DNA of 64,000 bases from Bacteroidales bacterium (lineage in GTDB: Bacteria > Bacteroidota > Bacteroidia > Bacteroidales > UBA932), in assembly GCA_017443025.1 (NCBI GenBank), contig JAFSPG010000001.1, positions 62,001 through 126,000 of the forward strand, given 5' to 3'. The position numbers and the translations under genes are program-made. The first letter of the stretch is position 1. Each line of letters opens with the position of its first letter. This document shows positions 22,306 to 35,494 of the stretch, piece by piece. Under the pieces are notes generated by a model that was not told the DNA's origin, searched no databases, and saw only the letters and a list, made by a program, of their open reading frames with translations.

Positions 22306-22710
22306 TTATATTCTCTTGATGTAGGCGAAGGGCGGGTAGGTGCGGACGATTTCTTTGACTGAAGCATTGAACCAAGCCTCCATCTGAGGACGTCCGAGGC
22401 AGTTGTTGACGTGATATTTGGCCGAGAGATTATATGGGGCAACCAATTCAAATTCCACGTAATCAGGGAGAGCGATGCGCTCTTTGGAAATCCTAAGGTC
22501 TATGCACAATTCCTTCTCCCCGTTCGCCAGAATATCGAGAACATCATTCTCCGCCCCGCAAGACATAACTTTGCAGAAGTCGTGATCCATTTCATCGTAG
22601 TAATGCTCCTGGAAAGGCTTGTAGAAGGGTTTTACATCAACAAGTTTCCAGAGTTTTCCGATGTACTTGGTGAGCGAGAGAGTGTAGTTTTTGGTGTTGG
22701 AGTTGTTCAT
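22306..22710 (-). CDS. Hypothetical protein
   Basis: A 134-residue protein of no family that I recognise, predicted soluble, with a mixed alpha/beta pattern and many aromatic residues (LWKLVDVKPFYKPFQ, HYHVNN-like KYHVNNCLG). It is the last gene of the accessory minus-strand run, 102 bases after the previous stop, so it may belong to the island operon or be separate. Confidence 0.55.
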   Translation of the reverse strand: MNNSNTKNYTLSLTKYIGKLWKLVDVKPFYKPFQEHYYDEMDHDFCKVMSCGAENDVLDILANGEKELCIDLRISKERIALPDYVEFELVAPYNLSAKYHVNNCLGRPQMEAWFNASVKEIVRTYPPFAYIKRI

Positions 22711-22812
22711 AAGCTGATACTAATTATTGGTTTGCGGTAAGAAAGACGTAATCTCCCGCAAAATCTATCACTCCAACAAAAAAATCAGAAAAAAATGAGA
22801 CGGCCGGAAAGA

Positions 22813-24219
22813 TTATCTGTGAATACGGTGATAATCGCCATAATCCTCCAGAAAACAGAAAGAAACATTCTTTTCGAAGCTCTGCAAGGGATATCCCTTG
22901 CTCTCGGCATAATCCAGGATAATCTTCTTGTCGTCATCTGTCAATATCGACATAACCGACAAAACTTCCCTTGTGAGTTGCACTATATCTTCCAGGATTT
23001 CCAACTCTAAATTAAACAAGCGTTCTTTCAGGGCATCCGGGATATCCATATCCTCACATCGCTCCAGAAGAGCTGGATCAGCCTCTACCGCAGCCACAAG
23101 CGCCGACCTTTTCAAGAACCCTCTCCACGAAAGTTCCGGTTCTTCTGACAAAGCAACATTGTATAATCTGCGGAGTTCCTCGTCCCCTTTTGAAGAACGG
23201 AACTTTTCTATCTGCTCTGCAAGCCAGGGATTAAGAGGACGGACTTTCCCAGGTATCATAAAAAATTGGCTTTTATGATGGCCGGCCATAAATTCATCCA
23301 GCGTCACGCCGATATTCTCAATATCTATCTTCAGTTCCACCTGACTATTAAGAAGCGTTTGAAAATCCTCATTATGAGTTTCCAAGTCAGCAATCATGAG
23401 CATTCCTTCATCAGATGAACTCAGATATTCTCCGGCGGTAGTATTTCTCAGGGGACAATCTTGCTCAAATATATCTATAACCGCCCTCAAGGCCTCCCAG
23501 TATACGAATCGCACGTCACTGACAGGCATCTTAGGCTTATCGACTCTCGGCTCGATGCAAAGCCAGGCACAGCACTTCCCATAGGCATTAAAAAAATTCT
23601 CCGCGGCATTGAAAAATTCCCTATAGTCATCCGGCTTCCAGTCGCTGTCCAGAAAGATAGGCTGAATTGTATCAAATTCCTGCTGACGAATATCTTCTTT
23701 ATCAAAATGGCCATAAAGGCGATAATACTCATTAAACCACTCATCCCTCAACGTAGGACGTGCGATATTGAAGACATGCGAAGAGCCGGGCGAAGGAATG
23801 GTCCAGAATCCGTACGCAATCGAAAGTTTTGTCGTCCTCCCCGAATAACTCTTAAGTTCAATGCCCAGCCCGGCAAGATATCTAATGACTTCTTGTTTTG
23901 CCCGTTCATCATCGGCGCAAATGACGTCCAGTTCTTCCTTTGTAATCTGAAGCAAGTCATACAGCGAATCCACTCCTGTCCAATAAAGGAGGTCTTTTGT
24001 CTCAGGAGAAAAAGGCAGCAATACAAGAGACTTCCGATAGAACGGCTCCTGGTGCAGATGCATTAGCAGATAACTTCTGGTCAAAAAATCCTGCCAGGAG
24101 AGGTTCTCATCCTCGAGGCAAGACTTTTTATACCACTCCCGCATATACACTTCACTGCGGCTCCCCTGATATCGCCGGATTATTTCCTCCAGCCAGGGAT
24201 TCAAAGGAAAGTTATTCAT
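22813..24219 (-). CDS. Protein with two RNA-polymerase-alpha-CTD-like helix-hairpin-helix modules
   Basis: The 468-residue soluble protein contains an internal duplication. Residues 6-124 and 330-447 each have an NPWL start, a helical region with SW-x2-FL-x-R, and a module that aligns by eye with the RNA polymerase alpha C-terminal domain. In the first copy GVDSLYDLLQITKEELDVI is followed by ALGLGIEL-like YLAGLGIELKS. In the second, ILEDIVQLTREVLSVM is followed by AESKGYPLQS. The middle (about 130-320) is not recognised. The start codon lies one base after the stop of the sigma-like gene, so the two are translationally coupled. The alpha-CTD fold binds DNA and activators, so a transcription role is likely but inferred. 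Protein-protein HhH modules of another kind are the alternative. Confidence 0.7.
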   Translation of the reverse strand: MNNFPLNPWLEEIIRRYQGSRSEVYMREWYKKSCLEDENLSWQDFLTRSYLLMHLHQEPFYRKSLVLLPFSPETKDLLYWTGVDSLYDLLQITKEELDVICADDERAKQEVIRYLAGLGIELKSYSGRTTKLSIAYGFWTIPSPGSSHVFNIARPTLRDEWFNEYYRLYGHFDKEDIRQQEFDTIQPIFLDSDWKPDDYREFFNAAENFFNAYGKCCAWLCIEPRVDKPKMPVSDVRFVYWEALRAVIDIFEQDCPLRNTTAGEYLSSSDEGMLMIADLETHNEDFQTLLNSQVELKIDIENIGVTLDEFMAGHHKSQFFMIPGKVRPLNPWLAEQIEKFRSSKGDEELRRLYNVALSEEPELSWRGFLKRSALVAAVEADPALLERCEDMDIPDALKERLFNLELEILEDIVQLTREVLSVMSILTDDDKKIILDYAESKGYPLQSFEKNVSFCFLEDYGDYHRIHR

Positions 24220-24220
24220 A

Positions 24221-25279
24221 CTATTCGGTCTTGCTGATTATCACGCAGTGGCAGTTGGAATCTGCCCAGGCATCGAGGAAATGAGCAACCTTGACGGTTA
24301 ACGGGACAGGACCGAAGGCAGGGTCGAACAGAGAGACTTCGTCCCATTCGGGATTTACTGTCAGGACCACGACGCAGTGATCCACTATACCGCCGGCGAG
24401 AATGTCTTCCAGCTTTTCTTCGACGGGATTGCCAATCAGCTCTCCCCCATCGACGGCCGCAATCACCCGCTTGCCTTCCTCAAGGGCCTTTTTGATATCC
24501 TCAAGCGAAGCACCCTTCTTCTTCTCCACCTTCAATCCCAGAGCCTCGGCCGTATTGCCCAAATCCTGAAGACGTGCGCCTTCTTCTGTAATCCAGCCGC
24601 GGCCGAGCGCAAGCTCGTGCAATTCCGACAAGGACTTGTGGATACCGAAGCAATGCAGGATATACTGTTCGCAGCGGATGGAGCACAGGGAATCTCCCCT
24701 GGTCTGGGCCACACGGATGATTTTAGCCAACTTCTTGAGAGCCCGCATCTTGATATTATAGAGATTGTCCTTCTTGATACCGGTGAGTTTCTCCAGGTCG
24801 TCGAAACTCATTCCTTCGATGACGTGCTTCTCAAGAATCATCCTGTAGTTAGGATTATCTATCTGGTCCAGTATGGCGGCAACTCTCATGTCTTCTTCCT
24901 CTTCCCTCTCGCGGGCAGATTTCTCGGATGTGTCGTCTATAATCTTTTTGGCTTTATTTAATAGACTCTCCTGCGACCCCTTTTCTATCACATCCTGACG
25001 TTTTTTCTCGAGTTTGATTCTTGACATGAAGAAATTGCGGGCCACAGACTTAAGCCACATATAAATGCTGGAGCGCCCTTCGAACATACGGAGCCGCCGC
25101 GCATTATCGGACATGATATGAAGATAAAGCTCGTTTACCAATTCATCATAATCGGCACCATCCGGATACAAATCTCTGATGACGGAATAGAACAACGGCG
25201 TACACCTCGAAAAGAAGAAATCCCGCGTTATCTTTTCGTCCCGGGCAATCAGCCCCTCGATGATTTCCTTGTCTGTCAT
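24221..25279 (-). CDS. Sigma-70-like factor fused to a C39-like cysteine peptidase domain
   Basis: The 352 residues fall into two parts. The N-terminal half resembles an ECF-type sigma factor. A sigma-2-like region (about 17-88) has FEGRSSIYMWLKSVARNFF, where region 2.3-2.4 is expected. A highly charged linker follows, then a sigma-4-like helix-turn-helix (about 145-186, MSFDDLEKLTGIKKDNLYNI). The C-terminal half (about 195-350) resembles bacteriocin-processing C39 peptidases: Cys199 in LCSIRCEQYILHCFG, His301 in VDHCVVVL, Asp319 in LFDPAFG. All three triad positions are present. It is coupled to the alpha-CTD-like gene and lies downstream of membrane protein genes. Proteolytic control of the sigma part or of a partner is inferred. 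An inactive ligand-binding C39 fold is possible. Confidence 0.8.
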   Translation of the reverse strand: MTDKEIIEGLIARDEKITRDFFFSRCTPLFYSVIRDLYPDGADYDELVNELYLHIMSDNARRLRMFEGRSSIYMWLKSVARNFFMSRIKLEKKRQDVIEKGSQESLLNKAKKIIDDTSEKSAREREEEEDMRVAAILDQIDNPNYRMILEKHVIEGMSFDDLEKLTGIKKDNLYNIKMRALKKLAKIIRVAQTRGDSLCSIRCEQYILHCFGIHKSLSELHELALGRGWITEEGARLQDLGNTAEALGLKVEKKKGASLEDIKKALEEGKRVIAAVDGGELIGNPVEEKLEDILAGGIVDHCVVVLTVNPEWDEVSLFDPAFGPVPLTVKVAHFLDAWADSNCHCVIISKTE

Positions 25280-25329: not shown

Positions 25330-26142
25330 TTATATGCAGTTTACGTATGTCTTATATCGATACCTGATCATTTTATCTTCTATTTCTTTAAGATTTAAGC
25401 TGCATGATTTTTCATTAATAAGATTGTCATAAAACGCCCAATCTCCCGTTCGATCAGGTATAACAATGCTGTTGTCCATCTTACCCTCTTTTTCATACTT
25501 AGGAATTCGTTCGCTATCCATATAGTATTCGTAAATATACTTTCCAATACTATCTTCAGATAGCCTCATATACCTACTATTTGCATAACGGATTAACTCT
25601 TTAGAAATACGCTTCGAGCGTGTCATTATGTCATCAAGATCGCTTAGTTTTATGGATTTTAAAGATCTTGAACCAGTAAAATGTTTTTCGGCTTCAAGAG
25701 CAGAAATGTTATAATTTCTCAATTTTACACGGATGCTATGTAACATCTCATAATTTTTTGCCTTAAAACTGAGTTGTTGCAACTCAATATCAGAGTCTAA
25801 GACACAATATCTCTGAAGAATCCCTTTAGGAATAGTAGCGTTTGGTACATCTAACCTAATCTTAATTGCTTCAGAAATCACGTTATTGATGAAAAGATGC
25901 CTGATGAGATCCTGAATGATTCTTTTCTGGCATTTCCTTCCCACAACAAATTTGCGTACTTCTATCATAAAGACGCCTAGGCCAATAATCGTGATGATTG
26001 ATGCGACAAATGAGAACCATGTCACCCATCCAGAAAAACCAGCTAAGGTATCTGTATTTTTGGATATCTCCTGAACCGTATTCAGTAAAGAATCGACAAC
26101 CTCTTTTGAAGGTAGGCCAGTATCAATATTACTTATAACCAT
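25330..26142 (-). CDS. Hypothetical single-pass membrane protein
   Basis: A 270-residue protein with one clear transmembrane helix (about residues 41-62, WFSFVASIITIIGLGVFMI) preceded by a short polar segment. The roughly 205-residue Lys/Arg-rich, mostly helical domain behind it is probably cytoplasmic. No enzymatic motif is recognised. The gene is strikingly AT-rich with A/T-ending codons, unlike the sigma-like gene 50 bases downstream. It lies between a Nudix-type membrane gene and the sigma-like gene on one strand. Confidence 0.65.
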   Translation of the reverse strand: MVISNIDTGLPSKEVVDSLLNTVQEISKNTDTLAGFSGWVTWFSFVASIITIIGLGVFMIEVRKFVVGRKCQKRIIQDLIRHLFINNVISEAIKIRLDVPNATIPKGILQRYCVLDSDIELQQLSFKAKNYEMLHSIRVKLRNYNISALEAEKHFTGSRSLKSIKLSDLDDIMTRSKRISKELIRYANSRYMRLSEDSIGKYIYEYYMDSERIPKYEKEGKMDNSIVIPDRTGDWAFYDNLINEKSCSLNLKEIEDKMIRYRYKTYVNCI

Positions 26143-26222: not shown

Positions 26223-27659
26223 TCAATCTTCAACTTCAGCACCTCGACTTAAATCAATACAATCTCCCGGCTTTGGTTTTTGTTGAAGAAAAGCTTGGGC
26301 ATACAAGTAATTGCATGTTGCTTCTGTGGATAAATAAGCGGAGGAAAATAAACTCTTTCTGAACTCGAGTTTTCCCAAAGATTTTTTGAAGCATTTATAG
26401 AGCACCCTCTCATCAATCCATTCAGTTCGTATCAAAAAAAACATCATCGGCTTTCCACCCCTAAGCGTCTCCCGCATGAAAGCCAACGGAATAATTTCAA
26501 ACTTCTTGCTCTTGTATAAACACTTATTCTTACGAGGGGAATTGCCCTCTTTCTTATCATCTAAAACTTCCATCTTAATCCTCTCAAAACATTTTTCGGG
26601 CTCATATAAGTCACTAGCTACACCTGTCTCCTCAAAAAATTCACGCGCAATTTCCCATTTTAAGAAATCGACAAGATTATCGTCGATAAATATACCATCC
26701 TTTGGGCATTCTATATCCCCAGCCGGAGTGCCTAACCTATTCGCATATACTCCTACTTCATTAACTCGCGGCAATAGATAGAACCTTCTGTCTTTTGGGC
26801 TGTTGGTGTCTTTACCATCCAAACACCAGATTGCAGATACTCCTATCACATTGGCAAGTCGGGATTCTTTAAAATCAACAAAAGTTTTTCTACCTCCCAT
26901 CTCGATTTCTCTCATTGAAGTATCTACTCCCTTCACTGTTATAGGATAATCCAGAGATAGATTAGTTCGTATTTGAGCGAAATAGCACGTCTTTTCTAAC
27001 GAGCAGCGATACAAGTCATTGGATTTCTTTTCAAATTCTTTCAATCTTGGATGTGCGCCATTAAAAGTTTTCGGTTTAGACTTAAGCACTTCTTTTAAAA
27101 CAGGTTCCGTAGCAGATACTAACTCCGGTGACAAGAGTGCATTTATGAGCTCTTGCTCAGTTTTAACATCCGCATTAGAGACATTCTTCGGGTCTATCTC
27201 AATTTTAGCTTTAGGATTACTGATAAAGTTTATCATTTCCTGATATGGAATAATAATTTCCCTTCTTCCATTTACATCTCGAATTGTCATCTTACGCATT
27301 TGAGATGTGCCGTAGATATCATATAGAAACCTCCCCGACAATTGGTAAGTCTCTTCTGCTTCCCGAAAATCAGTTTTTGCAATTCTCTCGTTAAGACTCC
27401 CTGAAGTTAATAAAAAGTTAACTCGGAATGATTTTGACCTCCATTTACGGTAGTTTGAACGTATCCCACGAAAAATTGTAATCAGACCAACTAGCGATGT
27501 GATTATTGCAGCTATAAATCCAATAATCGCTGCTATATGGCTAAAACTGATGGATGAAACAGAAAGATTATCGACCGAAATGGAGTCGATTTGAGCATTT
27601 ACCGAAAACGGCAACAGGAATATGACAAATAGTACTGATAGAATAACTTTCATACACAA
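26223..27659 (-). CDS. Membrane-anchored Nudix-fold protein
   Basis: The 478-residue protein has a probable signal peptide (residues 1-22, ending VNA-Q), a transmembrane helix (about 42-64), a central domain of unknown type (about 80-265) and a Nudix-like domain (about 270-430). The Nudix region has LGTPAGDIE, as in ADP-ribose-type Nudix enzymes, then a helix REFFEETGV (339-347). That is a perfect second half of the GX5EX7REUXEEXGU box, with metal-ligand Glu340, Glu343 and Glu344; the first half is disturbed by an insertion. Hydrolysis or binding of a nucleotide derivative is likely, but the substrate is unknown. The gene is AT-rich. It starts 32 bases after the stop of the ATPase gene. Confidence 0.7.
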   Translation of the reverse strand: MCMKVILSVLFVIFLLPFSVNAQIDSISVDNLSVSSISFSHIAAIIGFIAAIITSLVGLITIFRGIRSNYRKWRSKSFRVNFLLTSGSLNERIAKTDFREAEETYQLSGRFLYDIYGTSQMRKMTIRDVNGRREIIIPYQEMINFISNPKAKIEIDPKNVSNADVKTEQELINALLSPELVSATEPVLKEVLKSKPKTFNGAHPRLKEFEKKSNDLYRCSLEKTCYFAQIRTNLSLDYPITVKGVDTSMREIEMGGRKTFVDFKESRLANVIGVSAIWCLDGKDTNSPKDRRFYLLPRVNEVGVYANRLGTPAGDIECPKDGIFIDDNLVDFLKWEIAREFFEETGVASDLYEPEKCFERIKMEVLDDKKEGNSPRKNKCLYKSKKFEIIPLAFMRETLRGGKPMMFFLIRTEWIDERVLYKCFKKSLGKLEFRKSLFSSAYLSTEATCNYLYAQAFLQQKPKPGDCIDLSRGAEVED

Positions 27660-27691: not shown

Positions 27692-28813
27692 TCACATTCC
27701 CTCCAGCCACCTGGAGAAGAAGACATTATACACACAATAGCTGCTGCCGGCGAGAGTTTTGGTCTCCAGGAGGAGTTCTTTCTCAAGGAGGGAGTTCATC
27801 AGGCGGGTTGCGGTTGATGGCGCTCCAAGGTGGTATTTCTGAAGGAATGCTGAGCTTGTAGGCTCCGTCACAGTGTCTTCTTTGGCGACCGCTATCAGGA
27901 AGTCCCATTGCTTGACTGTCAGATAGTTGCGACGCTCAAGAAAGGTATCGGTATACTCCCTGAGAATAGTATCTGCAGCAACTAGGACGTCAACCATGGT
28001 AGCTTCTTTTTTAACTAATTGGAAAACGCGGTTACATAGCATCTGCGTATAGTAAGTATGGCAACGCGTCCACTCCAAAATGTAGTCGATAGCCTCAGCA
28101 GAAATGCTCTTTTTCTGCTCCTTGAATTGCCTGTCGATAAATTCAGCATAGGACTGACGATTTATCTTGTCGATAGAATATACGGATGCACTCTCGTAGA
28201 AAGGGCTGTGCTCGGCCGTGAACATCTCGGCAATCATATGCTTTTTGCTCCCGGAGAAAATAAACTGCACATTCTTCAGAGGCTGAATATAGGTTCTAAG
28301 CAGGGCTTCCATTGAAACACCCTCATATTCGCGGACCTGCTGGAATTCATCGATTGCCAGAATGACCTTCTGAGGACGACTGTCAAGATAGTCGAGCAAG
28401 GCCTTCAAGGAATAACGGCGCTCTGCGTCTGTCTGGAAGGTGAAAGAAATCTGCGGATTACCGCTCAGAGGATCCTGGCTTAATACCGGACGCAGGCTAC
28501 CAAGGGCCTTGAAAAAGTTCTTGATAGCAGATTCCTTTTTCAGTGTCCGGGAAATTGCCTCCGCAAGCAAGGCTATGAAATCATCGGCATTCCGTGAAGA
28601 ATAGATATCCACATAGTAAAGCTCAACCTTGGCTTTTTTGGCTTGAAGCACATCAAAAACATGATAAATCAAGCCCGTTTTGCCATAGCGTCTCGGCGAA
28701 ATTAATGCCACATTTGAGCCGTTTTCGAGGTAGTTAACCAGGTCTTCGGTCTCCTTTTCACGGTCGCAAAAATATTGGGCAGGAGTATGTGGGGTCAAGA
28801 AAAACGGATTCAT
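27692..28813 (-). CDS. P-loop ATPase of the archaeal-ATPase/STAND-like family
   Basis: A 373-residue protein with Walker A in SPRRYGKTGLI (Lys45, Thr46), Walker B ILAIDEFQQV, sensor FIFSGSKKH and a C-terminal winged-helix-like segment (WDFLIAVAKEDTVTEPTSSAFLQKYHLGAP). This architecture is very common in Bacteroidota, usually as single genes of unknown role. It is AAA-like and signal-transducing in related families. It has its own promoter with a palindrome (28831-28869) and may lead the six-gene run down to 22306. Confidence 0.85.
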   Translation of the reverse strand: MNPFFLTPHTPAQYFCDREKETEDLVNYLENGSNVALISPRRYGKTGLIYHVFDVLQAKKAKVELYYVDIYSSRNADDFIALLAEAISRTLKKESAIKNFFKALGSLRPVLSQDPLSGNPQISFTFQTDAERRYSLKALLDYLDSRPQKVILAIDEFQQVREYEGVSMEALLRTYIQPLKNVQFIFSGSKKHMIAEMFTAEHSPFYESASVYSIDKINRQSYAEFIDRQFKEQKKSISAEAIDYILEWTRCHTYYTQMLCNRVFQLVKKEATMVDVLVAADTILREYTDTFLERRNYLTVKQWDFLIAVAKEDTVTEPTSSAFLQKYHLGAPSTATRLMNSLLEKELLLETKTLAGSSYCVYNVFFSRWLEGM

Positions 28814-29255: not shown

Positions 29256-31850
29256 TTACCTATGTATTGGTTCAGTTTGAACCAATACCAAACTCTCTTC
29301 TTGCTTTTCTTCGCGAATCAATGCTAGTTGAAGTGAGTAAATATCAAGAGCAGAAATCTTATTTCTATTCTCTCGATGACTAATGAACCTTACTAGGGCA
29401 TTAATAACATCGGTGGACTGTCCTGTTAACAAAATAACTGAGCTTTGATTCAACGGTTCAATAAATTCAGAGTATATATTGGTCTCCTTATGAACGTTTA
29501 CAATATTGACGTTATCAACATCAAATCTATTTGCGCGAACAATCCAATAATAATTGTTTTGGTAATGAAACAGATCTAGTGGTCTATATGATGGCGCACT
29601 GCCTTCTTCAACGTTTAATTGATTTGAAAGCGATGCGAATTTATATTTCAACAAGCCAGTCTTTGATATCGAGAAGCATTTACTAAGACTAGTAACCTTC
29701 TTCTCTGTGAAAGAAGATTCGAATCTTAGAACTGGCGACACTAATTTCTTTGTAAACAAATATCTCTTGTTTTTATCTGTCAGTTCGACCGAAAGATATA
29801 CACTGAGTTTATCATCCGAGGAACTATAAAAAACAGGTATTTCCCTAAAATATAGCTTTTTCTCGAGACTGGATGAATCAGAAACACGCATCTGATAAAA
29901 ACTAATTGGTTCCTCCGTATGATTCTTTGCCCCTTCTCTCCTTGTTTTACAATACGGAGCATTAATCAGTTCCAACTCATTTAAGGGCTTTGTGAGTGTA
30001 GTCTTATCAGAATCTGGGATGCAACCAAAGTACATTCCTTCAAAAAGGCCCTTGTCTATATTCGCAGAGGTAGATTGTATGACAGTTGCATCTCCACCCC
30101 ACTGCGGGACCAATGGTTTAAATAATCGGTATGCTCGGTATTTACGTGTCGTTTTTAAATTACGAGTTTTAATTTTATGGATAACTTTGATGATTATCGA
30201 TAGAATCATGTTTACGAATAGAGTAACCCCGCCACCAACAATAAAATCAGGCTGTTCTAGCGGACTTTTCTTGGACACAAGTGCAAAGTATAAAAAAAAT
30301 GCCACTGACACAATGTAGTTAATCACAAGAATGAATCCTTTAGATAATCTACGGTTCCGAAGTACAAACCGTTGATAAAGTAACGGTGTGAAGCTCTCCC
30401 AATTCTCACAGAATGCATCATTCTTAGTATTTCTGAAAAACCATTTACGGTAAACATCGGCATCAATATGGAATTTCGGCATCTTGGCTACCATCAATTC
30501 TTTAATCTCCATGTATTTATCTTGACCAGGATACATCCTGGCCTGCTCGAGTGGCATACACGAGGAAAAATCAACGTAACACGCTAATCCGATTTCACCC
30601 TCATCGCACACAACAGAGAAATCTTGAAACACAAAGCCACATCTGCTTTCAACCAAATCTTGAGATACACCTAATTCTTCTTCTATGCCGCGTGAGACAC
30701 ATTTTTTTAAGTCATATTTGTCGGATTTCTCCTGCTGATCAGTTTTAGAGAAAGACTCATTAACTGGCACATGGATTTTTGACTCTCGGCACCTCTCTAT
30801 TCTACCATTACGCAAAGCTAGTAGCACACCATTTTCCCCGTTTGCTTGCTTCCCATAAACGACGATATCAATTCCGACAGATGAAAAAAGAAATTTTAAA
30901 GATTCGACGAGTAGTTCTTTCTCAATTTCGGACGCATAATTAAGTCGTCTTATTATTATTTGAAAATTCTCTTTATACTGCTTGTCAAGAAAAATATCCT
31001 TAAATACTTTAAAAGTGAAATGGTCAGTGAGATAGATTTTGAGAGATAAAATGCCCTTGTTTAAGTCATATCCAGAAACGCCGATTTTATCGCCTATAAA
31101 ATTAATGCTGTTATCGGATTCCATTGATTCACTAACCGCATTAATATGCTTCATTATGCTTGACAATGAATAAGGTTCCTGTAGCAAATAATCACAAATA
31201 TGATTGTCCTCAATATAAAATAACTCCTTGCTGACAATTTTTTTCTCAATAAAATCATTAATCTTCTGTTTAAGACCCTCATAATAGGATACGATACGAG
31301 AGTTACGTTCCTTTTCTATATCATCTTTATCAAGAATAGGCAGTCGGTCTTCATAACTCAATTCATTATTGTTCCTATCAACATGCGTCGCGAAATAAAT
31401 CTCATCAGGAGAATTAAACGAAGAATTAACACTTGACGGCAGCACTTCTTTGATTTTATGTGAAATGATTCCAACCAAGCCCTTAGTATCTCTTTTTAAT
31501 GGTCTGTGTTCCCAAATCATTGCAAATAATGCAAAAAGTGAAAGCAGCAAAAAGAGCAAATAACTATTATTCCACGGCATCGTGAAAAGATCGAAAAAGA
31601 ATAATAGTATTCCCAGAATAAAGAGAATCAGCATAAGCAGTTGAAAGAACTCAGTTATTTTAGGATTATGCATATTCTCAGACACTTTTTCGCTTTTACC
31701 TCGCTTTAAGTATTTATTAAGAGAATAGAGCCAACTATCTTCCCACCATTGTAATAGAAATCGTACAAAATAGGCGGCAAGAACAGTACTAATTGCGCCG
31801 ATAATCAAGAGGTGAAGATTATTCTGAATATACTCTATAAATTCCCGCAT
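29256..31850 (-). CDS. Large multi-pass membrane protein with a degenerate Nudix-like domain
   Basis: An 864-residue protein. Hydrophobic helices lie at about 11-33, 69-90 and 97-113, and a second pair at about 505-525 and 537-556. Between them (about 325-430) is a Nudix-like domain: GVLLALRNGR, then RGIEEELGV (387-395) where REUXEEXGU is expected. Glu391 and Glu392 are kept, but the first Glu is Gly388 and the G-x5-E half is missing, so metal-dependent hydrolysis is doubtful. The C-terminal 300 residues are not recognised. Codon use is AT-rich. The gene starts 11 bases after the stop of the triple-AAA gene and must be co-transcribed with it. Ligand sensing is inferred. Confidence 0.65.
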   Translation of the reverse strand: MREFIEYIQNNLHLLIIGAISTVLAAYFVRFLLQWWEDSWLYSLNKYLKRGKSEKVSENMHNPKITEFFQLLMLILFILGILLFFFDLFTMPWNNSYLLFLLLSLFALFAMIWEHRPLKRDTKGLVGIISHKIKEVLPSSVNSSFNSPDEIYFATHVDRNNNELSYEDRLPILDKDDIEKERNSRIVSYYEGLKQKINDFIEKKIVSKELFYIEDNHICDYLLQEPYSLSSIMKHINAVSESMESDNSINFIGDKIGVSGYDLNKGILSLKIYLTDHFTFKVFKDIFLDKQYKENFQIIIRRLNYASEIEKELLVESLKFLFSSVGIDIVVYGKQANGENGVLLALRNGRIERCRESKIHVPVNESFSKTDQQEKSDKYDLKKCVSRGIEEELGVSQDLVESRCGFVFQDFSVVCDEGEIGLACYVDFSSCMPLEQARMYPGQDKYMEIKELMVAKMPKFHIDADVYRKWFFRNTKNDAFCENWESFTPLLYQRFVLRNRRLSKGFILVINYIVSVAFFLYFALVSKKSPLEQPDFIVGGGVTLFVNMILSIIIKVIHKIKTRNLKTTRKYRAYRLFKPLVPQWGGDATVIQSTSANIDKGLFEGMYFGCIPDSDKTTLTKPLNELELINAPYCKTRREGAKNHTEEPISFYQMRVSDSSSLEKKLYFREIPVFYSSSDDKLSVYLSVELTDKNKRYLFTKKLVSPVLRFESSFTEKKVTSLSKCFSISKTGLLKYKFASLSNQLNVEEGSAPSYRPLDLFHYQNNYYWIVRANRFDVDNVNIVNVHKETNIYSEFIEPLNQSSVILLTGQSTDVINALVRFISHRENRNKISALDIYSLQLALIREEKQEESLVLVQTEPIHR

Positions 31851-31861
31851 ACAAATTCAAT

Positions 31862-34840
31862 TTAAAATCCTATCTTTCCTTTGCGGCTGTCCCATTTGAA
31901 GGTCGCGATGTCGGAGAGCTGGACCTCGTGGGCCTTGGGAGGCTCTGGGAGGGCGCTTTCGCGGAGGATGACCTGCTGGTAGATGGCGCGCGACATAAGT
32001 TTCATTGTTCTTGCGCTGGCGCCGGTGGAGGAGCAAAGAGCCTTGAGATATGCGCGTATGTGCTTTTCGGCGTCGGGGCTGAAGCTTACTCCGTACTTTT
32101 CAAGACACTGGCAGAGAATCTGGAAGAGTTCATCTTGAGTGAAATCCTTGAAGACCAGCGTATGGTCGAATTCATATACACCGGAATCGTAAAGCTGCTC
32201 AGCCAAATTCGCGTTGGGCGCATCAAGTTCGGCCAGAATCAGGGCGCACTCCCCACCTACCTCTACGGTCAGTTCCTTGACCTTAAGGCGTATCTGCTCG
32301 ATAATACGCCCATAGCCGTCGCTGAACTTGGGGTCATCCATATCGATGAAGATGAGGCCGTTGCAGGCTTTCTTCACCGCTTCCTTTAGCACTTCGTCGC
32401 AGTTGTAGTCGGAGACTCCGAATAATCTCTCGCCCCTGATTTGAGTAATGTGGCTGTTGGAAATCAGGCGCATGCCCCTAAGGATACCTGCCATTATTTC
32501 AGCCACGGTACTCTTTCCCGTGCCGCTATTGCCGATGAAGCGCCAGCTCAGGAGGCCTTTACCGACGTATGGCTCCCCTATCGAATGCAGGTAACGGGCC
32601 GACTGTACAAAGTTGTGGATGGCTTTCTTGACTCCGTCTAGCCCGGCAAGTGAATCCATGCGGGCAAGTGCGGCGTCGATGGCGACATCGTCAAATACGG
32701 CATCCTTCAATGATTTATCGACGACGACATCCTCCGGGAGGATGGTGCTGAGGTCTTCTTTTGTCGGATTAGCGAGCTTGGCAGTCCTGGTGCCAATAGT
32801 AGCCATAATCTCATTCTGGATAAGATTGGACATGAAGCGGCCGTTTCCGAAACGAGGCGACGGTTTGTCGGATTCCTCACGGATGATGGCCCTCATATTC
32901 TCAATGGCTCCGTCCGTCATGGTAAAGCCCTGCTTGCGAATCATCAGCTTGCCTATTTCCAAAAGCTCATCGCTGGTGTAATCTTCAAAGTTGAAGACAT
33001 TGGGGAAACGGCTTTCTATGCCCTCGTTACTCTCCAGAAGCTTTTTCATAGGGGCCGTATATCCGGCCAGGATAACCACCATATCCACATTGTCCTTACC
33101 CAGCTCGGTAAGCAGTGAATCCATGACGATATGTCCGAAATCTCTTTCTCCCTCACCGACAAGCTGATAAGCCTCGTCGATGAAGAGGATGTTACCACGG
33201 GCCCGGGCAAGGAGTTTCCTCATCTTTAATTCAGTCTCACCGATGTACTGCCCCACCAGCTTGCTCTTTTCGGTATGGATGACATGGCCGCCAGACAGGA
33301 TACCCCAGGAGGCGAAAACACGGCCGATGATATCGGCGACGGTTGTTTTGCCGGTTCCGGGGTTGCCGAGGAAGGCCATGTGCAGACGCGGCATATTGGT
33401 TGGCAAGCCCATTTCCATACGACGGCTGGCAAGTTTTATGGCTTCAAGATAGTCCTTGACTTTTTTCTTGATTGTATCCATTCCGATGAGCTCGTCGAGC
33501 TCAGCCATGGCATCACCGCCGCTGTTGCCAAGGGTCGGAATATCCTCTGGCATAACCAGCTCCAGCTGATCTTTGGAAGGCGACGGAATACCGCTCAGAC
33601 GATTGTACATCGCGGGGATGATGGAGTCGTCGAAGAGGCTCTTCACGAGCAGTGAATTCTGGAATCCGGGGCCACGGCGGTTGTACTTGTGGAGGATATA
33701 CATCTCAAGCTTTTGCCGGGCTTCGCCGGAGAGTTTGACATTACTCTCCGAGCAGCACCGGTCAACTACACTAAAGAGTTCCTCGGGCTTTAAATCTTCA
33801 AAGTATATGGGGTCAGCAAGATGTTGTTTGAGGTCGGGATGGGCCGAGAGAAGGTACTCCATTCCATCCGGCTCGCCTACAAGGATAGTAACAGATTTCT
33901 TAAAATCGGATTTTTCGGCAAGAGCTTCTACCAGTTCATTGACAATATGCCCCTCCTGTTCAAGGCCGGGGCTCTTGGGCTGGGTTGAATTCAGATCGTC
34001 AACCCCTTTAATCACAAGTACTCCGCCCCGGGCATTTGAAACAGCGATATTAATACCGGTTTCGGCTCCCGAAACATACTCTGTAGTGATTTCTTCCCTT
34101 TCAATCAGCCCAAGCGATTTGTAAAGCTTGGCCATCAGTTCAAGCGCCTTGGTTTTTCCGGTGCCCGGATTGCCGATAAAGGCAGTATGCAAAACCGGAG
34201 GGTTGGCTTTCAATCCGACATCTGCACGCATCTGACCGACTTTACAGCGGTTTGCTACCTCATTCATTCGAGCCTTGAAATTTTCCAATCCACTGCATTC
34301 GTTGATAGTTTTCAGCACTTCGTCCGCTGCCTGGAAATCGAATTCAAATGATTCTTCCCCGTTAAGCGGCCACGGCCCTTCGATGGTAATCTGATGCTCG
34401 ACAATATTCTCGCCGTCTTTCTGAAGGATGATTTGCAGCGTATCCGTCTCCCTGCGACCTATCATGTAGCCTTCGCCCATAAGTTCGGTAGTCAGGAATG
34501 GAGCCATATGCAGGCGGTTTCCGTCGCGGAACAAAGAGATGTTGTTCTGATTAAACCAGGCCTCCTTCTTATTGCGGCCATTATTAGTCTTGACGATAAG
34601 ATGAAGTTCGCTTTGCTCCTCGACGTCAGGAATCTCGACATCGATATGGATATACTGACCTTCGGCCGGAACAAGACTGCTGATTAGGCTCTCTACAAGA
34701 AATTCATTGCGGGAATCATTTGAGTCGCAGTATAAACGATAACCTCCTGTGCAAACAGAGTTTATTTCCTCCTTACCGCCACCGGCTATAAACTCTTCCA
34801 GGATACTCTCAAGATCAGAATGGGTTGGCTTCTTTGTCAT
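31862..34840 (-). CDS. Triple AAA+ ATPase of the CbxX/CfqX (SpoVK/EccA-like) type
   Basis: The 992 residues contain an N-terminal beta-rich domain (about 30-160) and three AAA+ modules. The Walker A motifs are GNPGTGKT (223-230), GNPGTGKT (492-499) and GNSGTGKS (770-777). Only the middle module has a standard Walker B (ILFIDEA, 551-557) together with QYIGET and an arginine-bearing IESRFP. The first has VLVIKGVDD and the third LIFIDMDD, so hydrolysis there is probably reduced. CbxX-type ATPases remodel or unfold protein partners (Rubisco activase CbbX, EccA of type VII secretion). Base composition resembles the core genome more than the Nudix genes. It leads the operon with the 864-residue membrane protein. 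Confidence 0.88.
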   Translation of the reverse strand: MTKKPTHSDLESILEEFIAGGGKEEINSVCTGGYRLYCDSNDSRNEFLVESLISSLVPAEGQYIHIDVEIPDVEEQSELHLIVKTNNGRNKKEAWFNQNNISLFRDGNRLHMAPFLTTELMGEGYMIGRRETDTLQIILQKDGENIVEHQITIEGPWPLNGEESFEFDFQAADEVLKTINECSGLENFKARMNEVANRCKVGQMRADVGLKANPPVLHTAFIGNPGTGKTKALELMAKLYKSLGLIEREEITTEYVSGAETGINIAVSNARGGVLVIKGVDDLNSTQPKSPGLEQEGHIVNELVEALAEKSDFKKSVTILVGEPDGMEYLLSAHPDLKQHLADPIYFEDLKPEELFSVVDRCCSESNVKLSGEARQKLEMYILHKYNRRGPGFQNSLLVKSLFDDSIIPAMYNRLSGIPSPSKDQLELVMPEDIPTLGNSGGDAMAELDELIGMDTIKKKVKDYLEAIKLASRRMEMGLPTNMPRLHMAFLGNPGTGKTTVADIIGRVFASWGILSGGHVIHTEKSKLVGQYIGETELKMRKLLARARGNILFIDEAYQLVGEGERDFGHIVMDSLLTELGKDNVDMVVILAGYTAPMKKLLESNEGIESRFPNVFNFEDYTSDELLEIGKLMIRKQGFTMTDGAIENMRAIIREESDKPSPRFGNGRFMSNLIQNEIMATIGTRTAKLANPTKEDLSTILPEDVVVDKSLKDAVFDDVAIDAALARMDSLAGLDGVKKAIHNFVQSARYLHSIGEPYVGKGLLSWRFIGNSGTGKSTVAEIMAGILRGMRLISNSHITQIRGERLFGVSDYNCDEVLKEAVKKACNGLIFIDMDDPKFSDGYGRIIEQIRLKVKELTVEVGGECALILAELDAPNANLAEQLYDSGVYEFDHTLVFKDFTQDELFQILCQCLEKYGVSFSPDAEKHIRAYLKALCSSTGASARTMKLMSRAIYQQVILRESALPEPPKAHEVQLSDIATFKWDSRKGKIGF

Positions 34841-34876: not shown

Positions 34877-35014
34877 AATAATATACGCAAGAAAGACATC
34901 AATTCGGGTAAAATCTATCCTTTTGACAGAAATATTTATGAATGTTATAGATATGAATCCCCAGCGTCTTTATTGAGCAACTTTTCCCGAGTTCATTGAA
35001 ATAATTCAGTTGTT

Positions 35015-35494
35015 ATGACAAAATCTTATCAACTTGTGGCCTGGACCGACAAAGGACAGGTCAAAATGCTTCCATGTGAAGTAAATGCGCTTATCAGCGA
35101 GTCTCAGGCTAAGATTGACCGCTTGATCGACGGTATCCGCTTCGATACATATAACGAGGTGTCTGACATTCTGGAAGTATGCGGGGCATACGAACAACTC
35201 GGAATCAGCCTTCTGAATCTGAGCAAAATCGATGAGGCCTTCCGGCAGTTTGCAAAAGCGGCCGAATGCTGCTGCACCTGTGGCAACAACTGGGAGGATT
35301 TCGAAGACTACGAAAGCCTCTGCCCGCCGCTGCGCGAAGAGTTTTACGCGATGTACGACCGATGCAAGAATCTGGTCCGCCAATATCCTCAGCTCCGCCA
35401 CGCCTGGAACGAAAGCGGCCTCTCGGATTACCTCAGCTGGGTTAAGCAGAAAAATAGGTGGCTCAAGGCCGAGTACGGCTACAGCGGCTTATAA
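35015..35494 (+). CDS. Hypothetical protein, TPR-like
   Basis: A 159-residue soluble helical protein. The central segment (about 55-85, ILEVCGAYEQLGISLLNLSKIDEAFRQFAKAAE) looks like one or two TPR units. A cluster of Cys (ECCCTCG, 85-91) follows, which could bind a metal but lacks a standard spacing. No family is recognised. It lies between the island and the queC leader, on the opposite strand to the island. Confidence 0.55.
   Translation: MTKSYQLVAWTDKGQVKMLPCEVNALISESQAKIDRLIDGIRFDTYNEVSDILEVCGAYEQLGISLLNLSKIDEAFRQFAKAAECCCTCGNNWEDFEDYESLCPPLREEFYAMYDRCKNLVRQYPQLRHAWNESGLSDYLSWVKQKNRWLKAEYGYSGL

Follow-up and report, generated by a model that had tools for sequence, protein, structure and literature searches.

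What does a cysteine-peptidase-type domain do on the chain of a sigma factor? The question is raised by a gene on the minus strand of a Bacteroidales contig (JAFSPG010000001.1), at positions 24221..25279 of the window, by which we mean the whole analysed stretch of 64,000 nucleotides. The gene has an ATG start and no internal stops, and encodes a protein of 352 aa. An earlier note had described the product as an ECF-type sigma factor followed by a C39-like peptidase with an intact catalytic triad, and had offered a transcription switch as its possible role.

The two halves of the fusion protein

In a profile search, residues 19-186 of the protein matched TIGR02937 (sigma70-ECF) with an E value of 7e-18, which exceeds the cut-off and bears out the proposed ECF sigma-2/sigma-4 arrangement. 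Region 2 (residues 23-90; 25010..25213, minus strand) and the helix-turn-helix of region 4 (residues 143-184; 24728..24853, minus strand) lie within this match and were also hit by Pfam Sigma70_r2 and Sigma70_r4_2, both scoring under the gathering threshold. The profile search matched no sigma region beyond these two. Regions 2 and 4 were found without regions 1.1 and 3, as is required of an ECF (group IV) factor. Searching the PDB with the window protein alone recovered only sigma chains (best E 0.11) and no C39 chain.

The C39-like cysteine-peptidase domain occupies residues 197-350 (24230..24691, minus strand; borders taken from alignments). Peptidase_C39 matched residues 198-256 with 20.3 bits, the Pfam cut-off being 22, and Peptidase_C39_2 gave a weak match to residues 197-321. 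A homologue at locus L021 passed the Peptidase_C39 cut-off (27.8 bits, E 2.4e-6). The significant scores that the earlier note had expected were thus obtained for the sigma half and, for the C39 half, in this homologue, the window protein itself remaining sub-threshold. A profile of 23 homologous domains matched the "putative C39-like peptidase" 3erv in the PDB (E 3.8e-7), more weakly the AziU3/Azi29 chains (E about 4e-4), and also the C39 peptidase of a bacteriocin transporter (E 0.007). With a profile built from five fused proteins, the PDB yielded no C39 chain at 0.01. The gene at 24221-25279 encodes an ECF sigma factor joined directly to a C39-like cysteine-peptidase domain. Judged from sequence, neither half is spurious, the evidence for the C39 half coming from its family.

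Cys199 (codon 24683..24685), His301 (24377..24379) and Asp319 (24323..24325, all on the minus strand) were located exactly where the earlier note had placed them and follow the C39 order. The cysteine was kept in 36 of 36 homologues with an alignment reaching its column and the histidine in 38 of 38, while the third residue was Asp in 34 of 38 and Asn in four. These counts were taken from 39 rows (38 without one repeat), the later finds L094 and L095 being outside them, and the cysteine count leaves out an ordinary C39 protein (L045) and a 113-aa fragment (L059), whose alignments stop short of the Cys column. Among 23 rows chosen as divergent, eight columns were invariant, two of which are this Cys and this His. 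Their retention across the homologues argues for a functional site.

In classical C39 peptidases a Gln six residues ahead of the Cys forms the oxyanion hole. This Gln was absent from all nine fused proteins found, the window protein having a Gln at -7 only, and was present in eight of 36 homologues, all within one other clade, two members of which lack it. An intact triad is therefore not equivalent to an intact classical C39 site. The Cys-His-Asp set claimed earlier stands and the oxyanion Gln does not accompany it, so that we refer to the domain as C39-like and to its peptidase activity as putative, despite the conserved Cys and His. The missing Gln would fit binding better than catalysis.

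The domain resembles the double-glycine C39 peptidases of bacteriocin ABC exporters in its family, by profile, and in its Cys-His-Asp order. Unlike them it is attached to a sigma factor, lacks the Gln at -6 and has no recognised exporter gene in its operon. Among the eight operon proteins scanned by profile no ABC exporter was recognised, and the sole ABC_tran match was a 22-residue P-loop stretch within a triple-AAA protein. The lack of a recognised exporter, together with that of the Gln, rules out a plain bacteriocin-type C39 peptidase. Being fused to a sigma factor, the domain is presumably cytosolic.

An AlphaFold2 model made with four alignment rows was of low confidence (mean pLDDT 65, pTM 0.42). 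The sigma half was helical and the elements of the C39 half came in the expected order, a helix and then strands, with His301 opening one strand (301-309) and Asp319 directly following another (314-318). Segments with pLDDT below 50 were 67-69, 97-132, 186-196 and 278-299. In such folds the catalytic cysteine is usually found at the start of a helix. The single helix that the model draws from 170 to 210, across the low-confidence linker and Cys199, departs from this and is not to be trusted.

A profile of five fused proteins was searched against 400 genomes of the same genus, of which 34 matched at E 1e-10. The full-length fusion was found in one open frame in nine of the 400, including the window's own, and stop codons were absent from all nine genes. 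Its intact occurrence in nine genomes rules out an assembly chimera. Over 36 pairs the median pN/pS was 0.31 for the sigma half and 0.26 for the C39 half, ratios that are crude, given the almost saturated synonymous sites (median pS about 0.73). Invariant positions among the nine proteins numbered 57 of 188 in the sigma half and 65 of 164 in the C39 half, and both halves look constrained. The fused proteins formed a single clade in the C39 tree (36 rows, excluding L045 and L059; support 100/99) and in the sigma tree (42 rows; 100/100), and the non-fused L055 and L057 were nearest to them in the former (84/91). By coordinates and gene content, G735, one of the nine, is the same stretch as L021, a Bacteroidales metagenome assembly from roe-deer omasum; L091 also corresponds to L021. 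A viral origin was dropped, as none of the 183 stretches that matched a pattern in one scan of a viral collection was confirmed. The plasmid search matched one record, an Anabaena C39 protein without a sigma half.

Non-fused relatives and neighbouring genes

The C39-domain profile matched nine of 200 genomes of the genus, 14 of 393 at the order level (E 1e-5) and three of 395 at the phylum level (E 1e-12). The window's genome is included in all three counts and the ordinary C39 protein L045 in the second. The 39 C39 rows comprised nine fused proteins, 21 with an adjacent sigma gene and nine without one. Adjacency was defined as a sigma gene between a 35 nt overlap and a 22 nt gap, and 15 of the 21 pairs overlap. 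Among the nine rows failing this rule, L055 and L064 have a sigma gene within 600 nt, L045 is the ordinary C39 protein and L059 the fragment.

In the 21 pairs, the C39 protein has 66 to 158 residues N-terminal to the Cys. Profile scans gave a weak zf-HC2 match in five of nine non-fused C39 proteins (best E 0.008, all under the cut-off), and zf-HC2 was absent from the other four and from the C39 proteins of L022 and L004. An H-x3-C-x2-C motif was seen by eye in those of L044 and L094. The N-terminal segment looks similar to an anti-sigma domain. In the fused chain Cys199 lies 15 residues past the region-4 match, a distance which implies that the anti-sigma-like segment is gone, and the fusion looks like a sigma/regulator pair merged into one chain with that segment lost. 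Since the two halves are neighbouring genes in several relatives, the peptidase-like part probably controls the timing of the switch. The transcription switch suggested in the earlier note is carried part of the way by these pairs, in which the C39 domain sits in an anti-sigma-like partner gene beside the sigma gene; this takes the suggestion beyond guesswork.

Further domains were present C-terminal of C39 in the non-fused proteins. A RyR domain was detected in three of 11 scanned (L022, L004 and L035; E 1e-32 to 6e-30) and was recognised by eye in further ones, among them L029, L031, L033, L034, L040 and L042, and some proteins have zinc ribbons. Neighbouring genes included dynamin-like GTPases (by eye in L032, L036, L038, L039, L094 and L095, annotated in L023), TIR-like proteins (by eye in L022 and L044) and an M48 peptidase (by profile in L034).

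In the window, eight minus-strand genes run from 34840 to 22306 and presumably form one operon. The run is headed by a triple-AAA (CbbX/SpoVK-like) ATPase identified by profiles (31862..34840), homologues of which lie beside the fusion in L083, L084 and L091. It is followed by an 864-aa protein (29256..31850) with a hydrophobic stretch seen by eye, an ATPase_2 family ATPase assigned by profile (27692..28813; homologue beside the fusion in L091), a 478-aa protein (26223..27659) and a 270-aa protein (25330..26142) with a hydrophobic stretch by eye and homologues in L075 and L141. Next come the sigma-C39 gene and, one base downstream of it, a gene for a 468-aa protein to which no function was assigned (22813..24219; homologue near the fusion in L077). 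The last is a small companion gene of 134 aa (22306..22710), two of whose eight members show a weak resemblance to DUF6717 (best E 0.007). NUDIX-box-like stretches (REFFEETGV and RGIEEELGV) were noticed by eye in the 478-aa and 864-aa proteins and had no profile match. An alpha-CTD-like reading of the 468-aa protein, made by eye only, was abandoned for want of profile support. No CRISPR protein was found among the eight operon proteins scanned by profile. A PADLOC defence system was likewise discarded: neither the fusion nor the C39 protein of L022 was matched, and the hits obtained were AAA ones in the triple-AAA protein and a single weak one in the 864-aa protein (E 0.0017).

The 134-aa companion gene was found beside eight of the nine fusions, the exception being that of genome G158, and, among 151 genomes sampled from the genus, in three, each of which also has the fusion (G000, G004 and G142). 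The triple-AAA gene was contained in the stretch taken at four of nine fused loci (the window, L083, L084 and L091), and the remaining neighbours vary (SH3, NYN, ATPase). Divergent from the operon is an ORF of 159 aa (35015..35494, plus strand), here called the YQLVAWT gene, which was recognised by eye in five more of the nine fused loci (L075, L083, L084, L086 and L091).

A conserved and apparently structured leader RNA of about 60 nt was observed ahead of YQLVAWT genes or of a small gene preceding them. Its sites are L115 4995-, L075 5443-, L083 9303+, L086 12306+, L133 8003+, L134 12061+, L136 434+, L139 2955+ and L141 7690-. RNAalifold, run on nine sequences, gave 16 pairs, three of them with changes on both sides, and no Rfam family reached its gathering threshold in L115, L075 or L083. 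The YQLVAWT gene of the window has only the last part of the leader, TTCATTGAAATA at 34992. An upstream-peptide reading of the leader was replaced by that of a structured RNA.

Candidate promoter motif

A candidate ECF promoter, GATAGAT-N14-[C/T]GTCTTT, was first noticed by eye in intergenic stretches. It occurs twice in the window, both times on the minus strand: at 22742..22769, where GATAGA precedes the 134-aa gene by 59 nt and is paired with CGTCTTT, and at 34892..34919, where it precedes the triple-AAA gene heading the run by 79 nt and is paired with TGTCTTT. The exact-spacing pattern (GATAGA-N15-[ACT]GTCTT) had 14 matches in 177 kb from the nine fused loci and none in 147 kb from twelve loci at which relatives are not fused. 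When the spacing was varied from 8 to 25, the other values gave no match or one, except for 16 with seven in fused loci; the latter was dropped, as five of the seven lie inside the sigma-C39 gene.

The 134-aa genes provided upstream stretches outside the set in which the motif was first noticed. The core GATAGA-N16-GTC was present in eight of eight, 50-62 nt before the ATG, two having CGTCTA in place of CGTCTT. For L086 and L091 an internal ATG was used, because the start assigned mechanically to the ORF overlapped or adjoined the motif. Dinucleotide shuffles produced it in a mean of 0.001 of the eight companion genes, and never in more than one of them over 2000 rounds, odds that are overstated since the fused loci share descent and their matches are not independent. 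The near-saturated synonymous sites of the sigma-C39 genes imply, on the other side, that unconstrained DNA should have diverged.

Four of six copies of the triple-AAA gene had the motif (the window, L083, L084, and L139 with a spacing of 16), and those of L091 and L115 did not. A search of all of G000 found the exact pattern four times and a reversed-pattern control twice. Two of the four matches are those of the window, ahead of the AAA gene and of the 134-aa gene, and the other two belong to a second locus with another triple-AAA gene, a YQLVAWT gene and a metallophosphoesterase gene. A slightly looser pattern yielded 19 matches in eight of the nine fused genomes, of which 15 were either no more than about 11 kb from the fusion or at the second G000 locus, while the other four were inside ORFs and were taken as background. 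The 196 non-fused genomes in the sample of 200 from the genus had 76 matches, about 0.4 per genome. Two paralogous triple-AAA genes of one genome (31862-34840 in the window and L115 6486-9779) both lie near YQLVAWT genes and candidate GATAGAT promoters.

Among the YQLVAWT genes, nine of 15 cases examined had the motif within 520 nt. Four of these nine belong to genomes lacking any detected fusion or C39 relative (G005, G098, G054 and G053, assemblies given as 83-95 % complete), so another factor may read the motif. Six matches from non-fused genomes, chosen as the most consensus-like, were opened; three were before YQLVAWT genes (G005, G053 and G098) and three elsewhere. In G158 the fusion is present, and both the 134-aa gene and a motif of the system's type are absent at the locus. 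The motif was found directly before the sigma-C39 gene in none of the nine fused loci; at three of them (those of the window, L083 and L084) a motif-bearing AAA gene is located upstream of it. That this sigma factor reads GATAGAT-N14-CGTCTTT is a good hypothesis.

A putative one-chain switch and its alternatives

We put it at slightly better than an even chance that the protein is a one-piece ECF sigma switch, in which the C39 domain replaces a separate regulator and the active-site cysteine has a role in sensing or processing. Through its regions 2 and 4 the sigma half would contact RNA polymerase and GATAGAT-N14-CGTCTTT promoters, chief among them that of the 134-aa companion gene. Some genomes would have a further target in the triple-AAA gene, which precedes the sigma gene on its strand, giving positive feedback. 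The C39-like domain would restrain the sigma half in cis, within the same chain, and would retain its Cys and His for engaging a signal. A peptide or small ligand could serve as this signal, as could an event at the cysteine that is either chemical or proteolytic, and engagement of the signal at the C39 site would release the sigma half. The presence of the domain in the regulator's place in two architectures suggests that it restrains the sigma factor and that an event at the cysteine lifts or changes this restraint. We infer both the inhibition in cis by the C39 domain and the sensing at Cys199; as the fusion has no anti-sigma-like segment, the inhibition has no sequence support of its own. 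A narrower version, in which a signal acting at the C39 cysteine through cleavage or a covalent intermediate switches the attached sigma on, with feedback on its own genes, can be held only tentatively.

The C39 domain might instead cut its own chain upon a signal, most simply in the short linker between region 4 and Cys199, and so release or destroy the sigma factor. We regard this as unlikely. The Cys and His kept throughout, with Asp or Asn as third residue, agree with self-processing, as does a linker that is short and poorly modelled (pLDDT below 50 at 186-196), and protease control of sigma factors is known, for example from Csx29 and the inhibitor of CASP-sigma (PMC10028731). However, the Gln at -6 is gone in every fused protein, the linker appears to run into the active-site helix, which would make a cut in cis awkward, no conserved double-glycine site was found in the linker by eye, and in the non-fused relatives the C39 domain is on a chain other than that of the sigma factor. 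Somewhat less probable again is an enzyme acting in trans, the sigma factor being constitutive or conventionally controlled and the C39 domain modifying another protein, such as the 134-aa companion, or carrying out non-proteolytic chemistry. The latter is known from AziU3-type relatives, whose chains the family profile also matched, and the companion gene was confined to fused genomes in the genus sample. Against this, the fused genome G158 has no companion at its locus, and the repeated occurrence of C39 in the position of the anti-sigma gene argues for a regulatory role.

The least probable of these alternatives, and an improbable one, is a ligand-binding or docking module with a C39 fold and no chemistry, comparable to other non-catalytic C-terminal extensions of ECF factors. 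The missing Gln and the change from Asp to Asn in four of 38 homologues would be in line with it. Asn can, however, replace Asp in papain-like enzymes, and the retention of Cys and His at about 30 % identity is unexpected for a dead site. In favour of such a module, the ECF C-terminal extensions described in PMC8999054 are SnoaL, cysteine-rich, TPR, WD40 and anti-sigma-like domains, some of them thought to be fused anti-sigma factors. The fusion is like these proteins in having a C-terminal domain in place of a separate anti-sigma factor, and differs from them in that its extension is of the cysteine-peptidase type with a Cys-His-Asp set. The sigma-C39 architecture is a variant of this ECF-with-extension kind that was not found described in the open-access literature. 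A sigma-C39 fusion was named in no title or abstract opening among the matches listed from that literature, and the words C39 and peptidase are absent from the main text of an ECF review (PMC8103513).

Other known systems share parts of this arrangement. CalpL-CalpT-CalpS consists of three proteins, and differs from the fusion in its Lon-type protease, its cyclic-nucleotide input and the separation of its components. The likeness is that a protease controls a transcriptional response, there in type III CRISPR (PMC12751052). The closest published mechanism that we found appears to be CASP-sigma, in which the CRISPR-linked protease Csx29 is described as cutting an ECF inhibitor and the sigma motif lies in its own locus (PMC10028731). 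Like the fusion, this type III-E system (CASP-sigma/Csx30/Csx29, DiCASP) has an ECF sigma factor with a protease-linked partner and a promoter motif in its own locus; its protease is a separate TPR-CHAT protein that is activated by target RNA and cuts a separate inhibitor (PMC10028731), whereas in the fusion the cysteine-peptidase-like domain is on the sigma chain. Predicted neighbourhoods of EACC2, caspase and ECF sigma genes likewise combine sigma genes with peptidases, there predicted to self-activate, and with variable conflict-type gene sets (PMC8195603). They differ in having a caspase rather than C39, linked genes rather than a fusion, and other adaptor domains, and the word C39 is absent from the main text of that TRADD-N paper (PMC8195603).

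The fusion and its relatives show a way of wiring a cysteine-peptidase-type domain to transcription, which takes the form of an anti-sigma-like partner gene in roughly 3 % of the genomes sampled from the order and of a single chain in one genus. The family of sigma factors with anti-sigma-like C39 proteins may be the more general finding. The promoter motif offers a ready reporter, which makes the question of a self-contained protease-sigma switch testable. At some loci of non-fused relatives the surrounding gene sets are reminiscent of conflict or defence systems, with RyR and M48 detected by profile and dynamin-like and TIR-like proteins noticed by eye.

Two further groups of loci were observed. 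A second C39-like group, in which the Gln at -6 is kept (L032, L036, L038, L039, L094, L095 and L023, the last being the Anabaena plasmid NC_019428.1), adjoins dynamin-like GTPase genes, the stretch containing a sigma gene in some cases and none in others, and is possibly a separate conflict system. In L003, L018 and L019, related sigma genes were found with no C39 gene in the stretch, beside a sub-threshold SIR2-like protein and, by eye, TIR-like, channel-RCK-like and CHAT-like proteins. Such neighbours point to a broad association of this sigma family with gene sets of that type.
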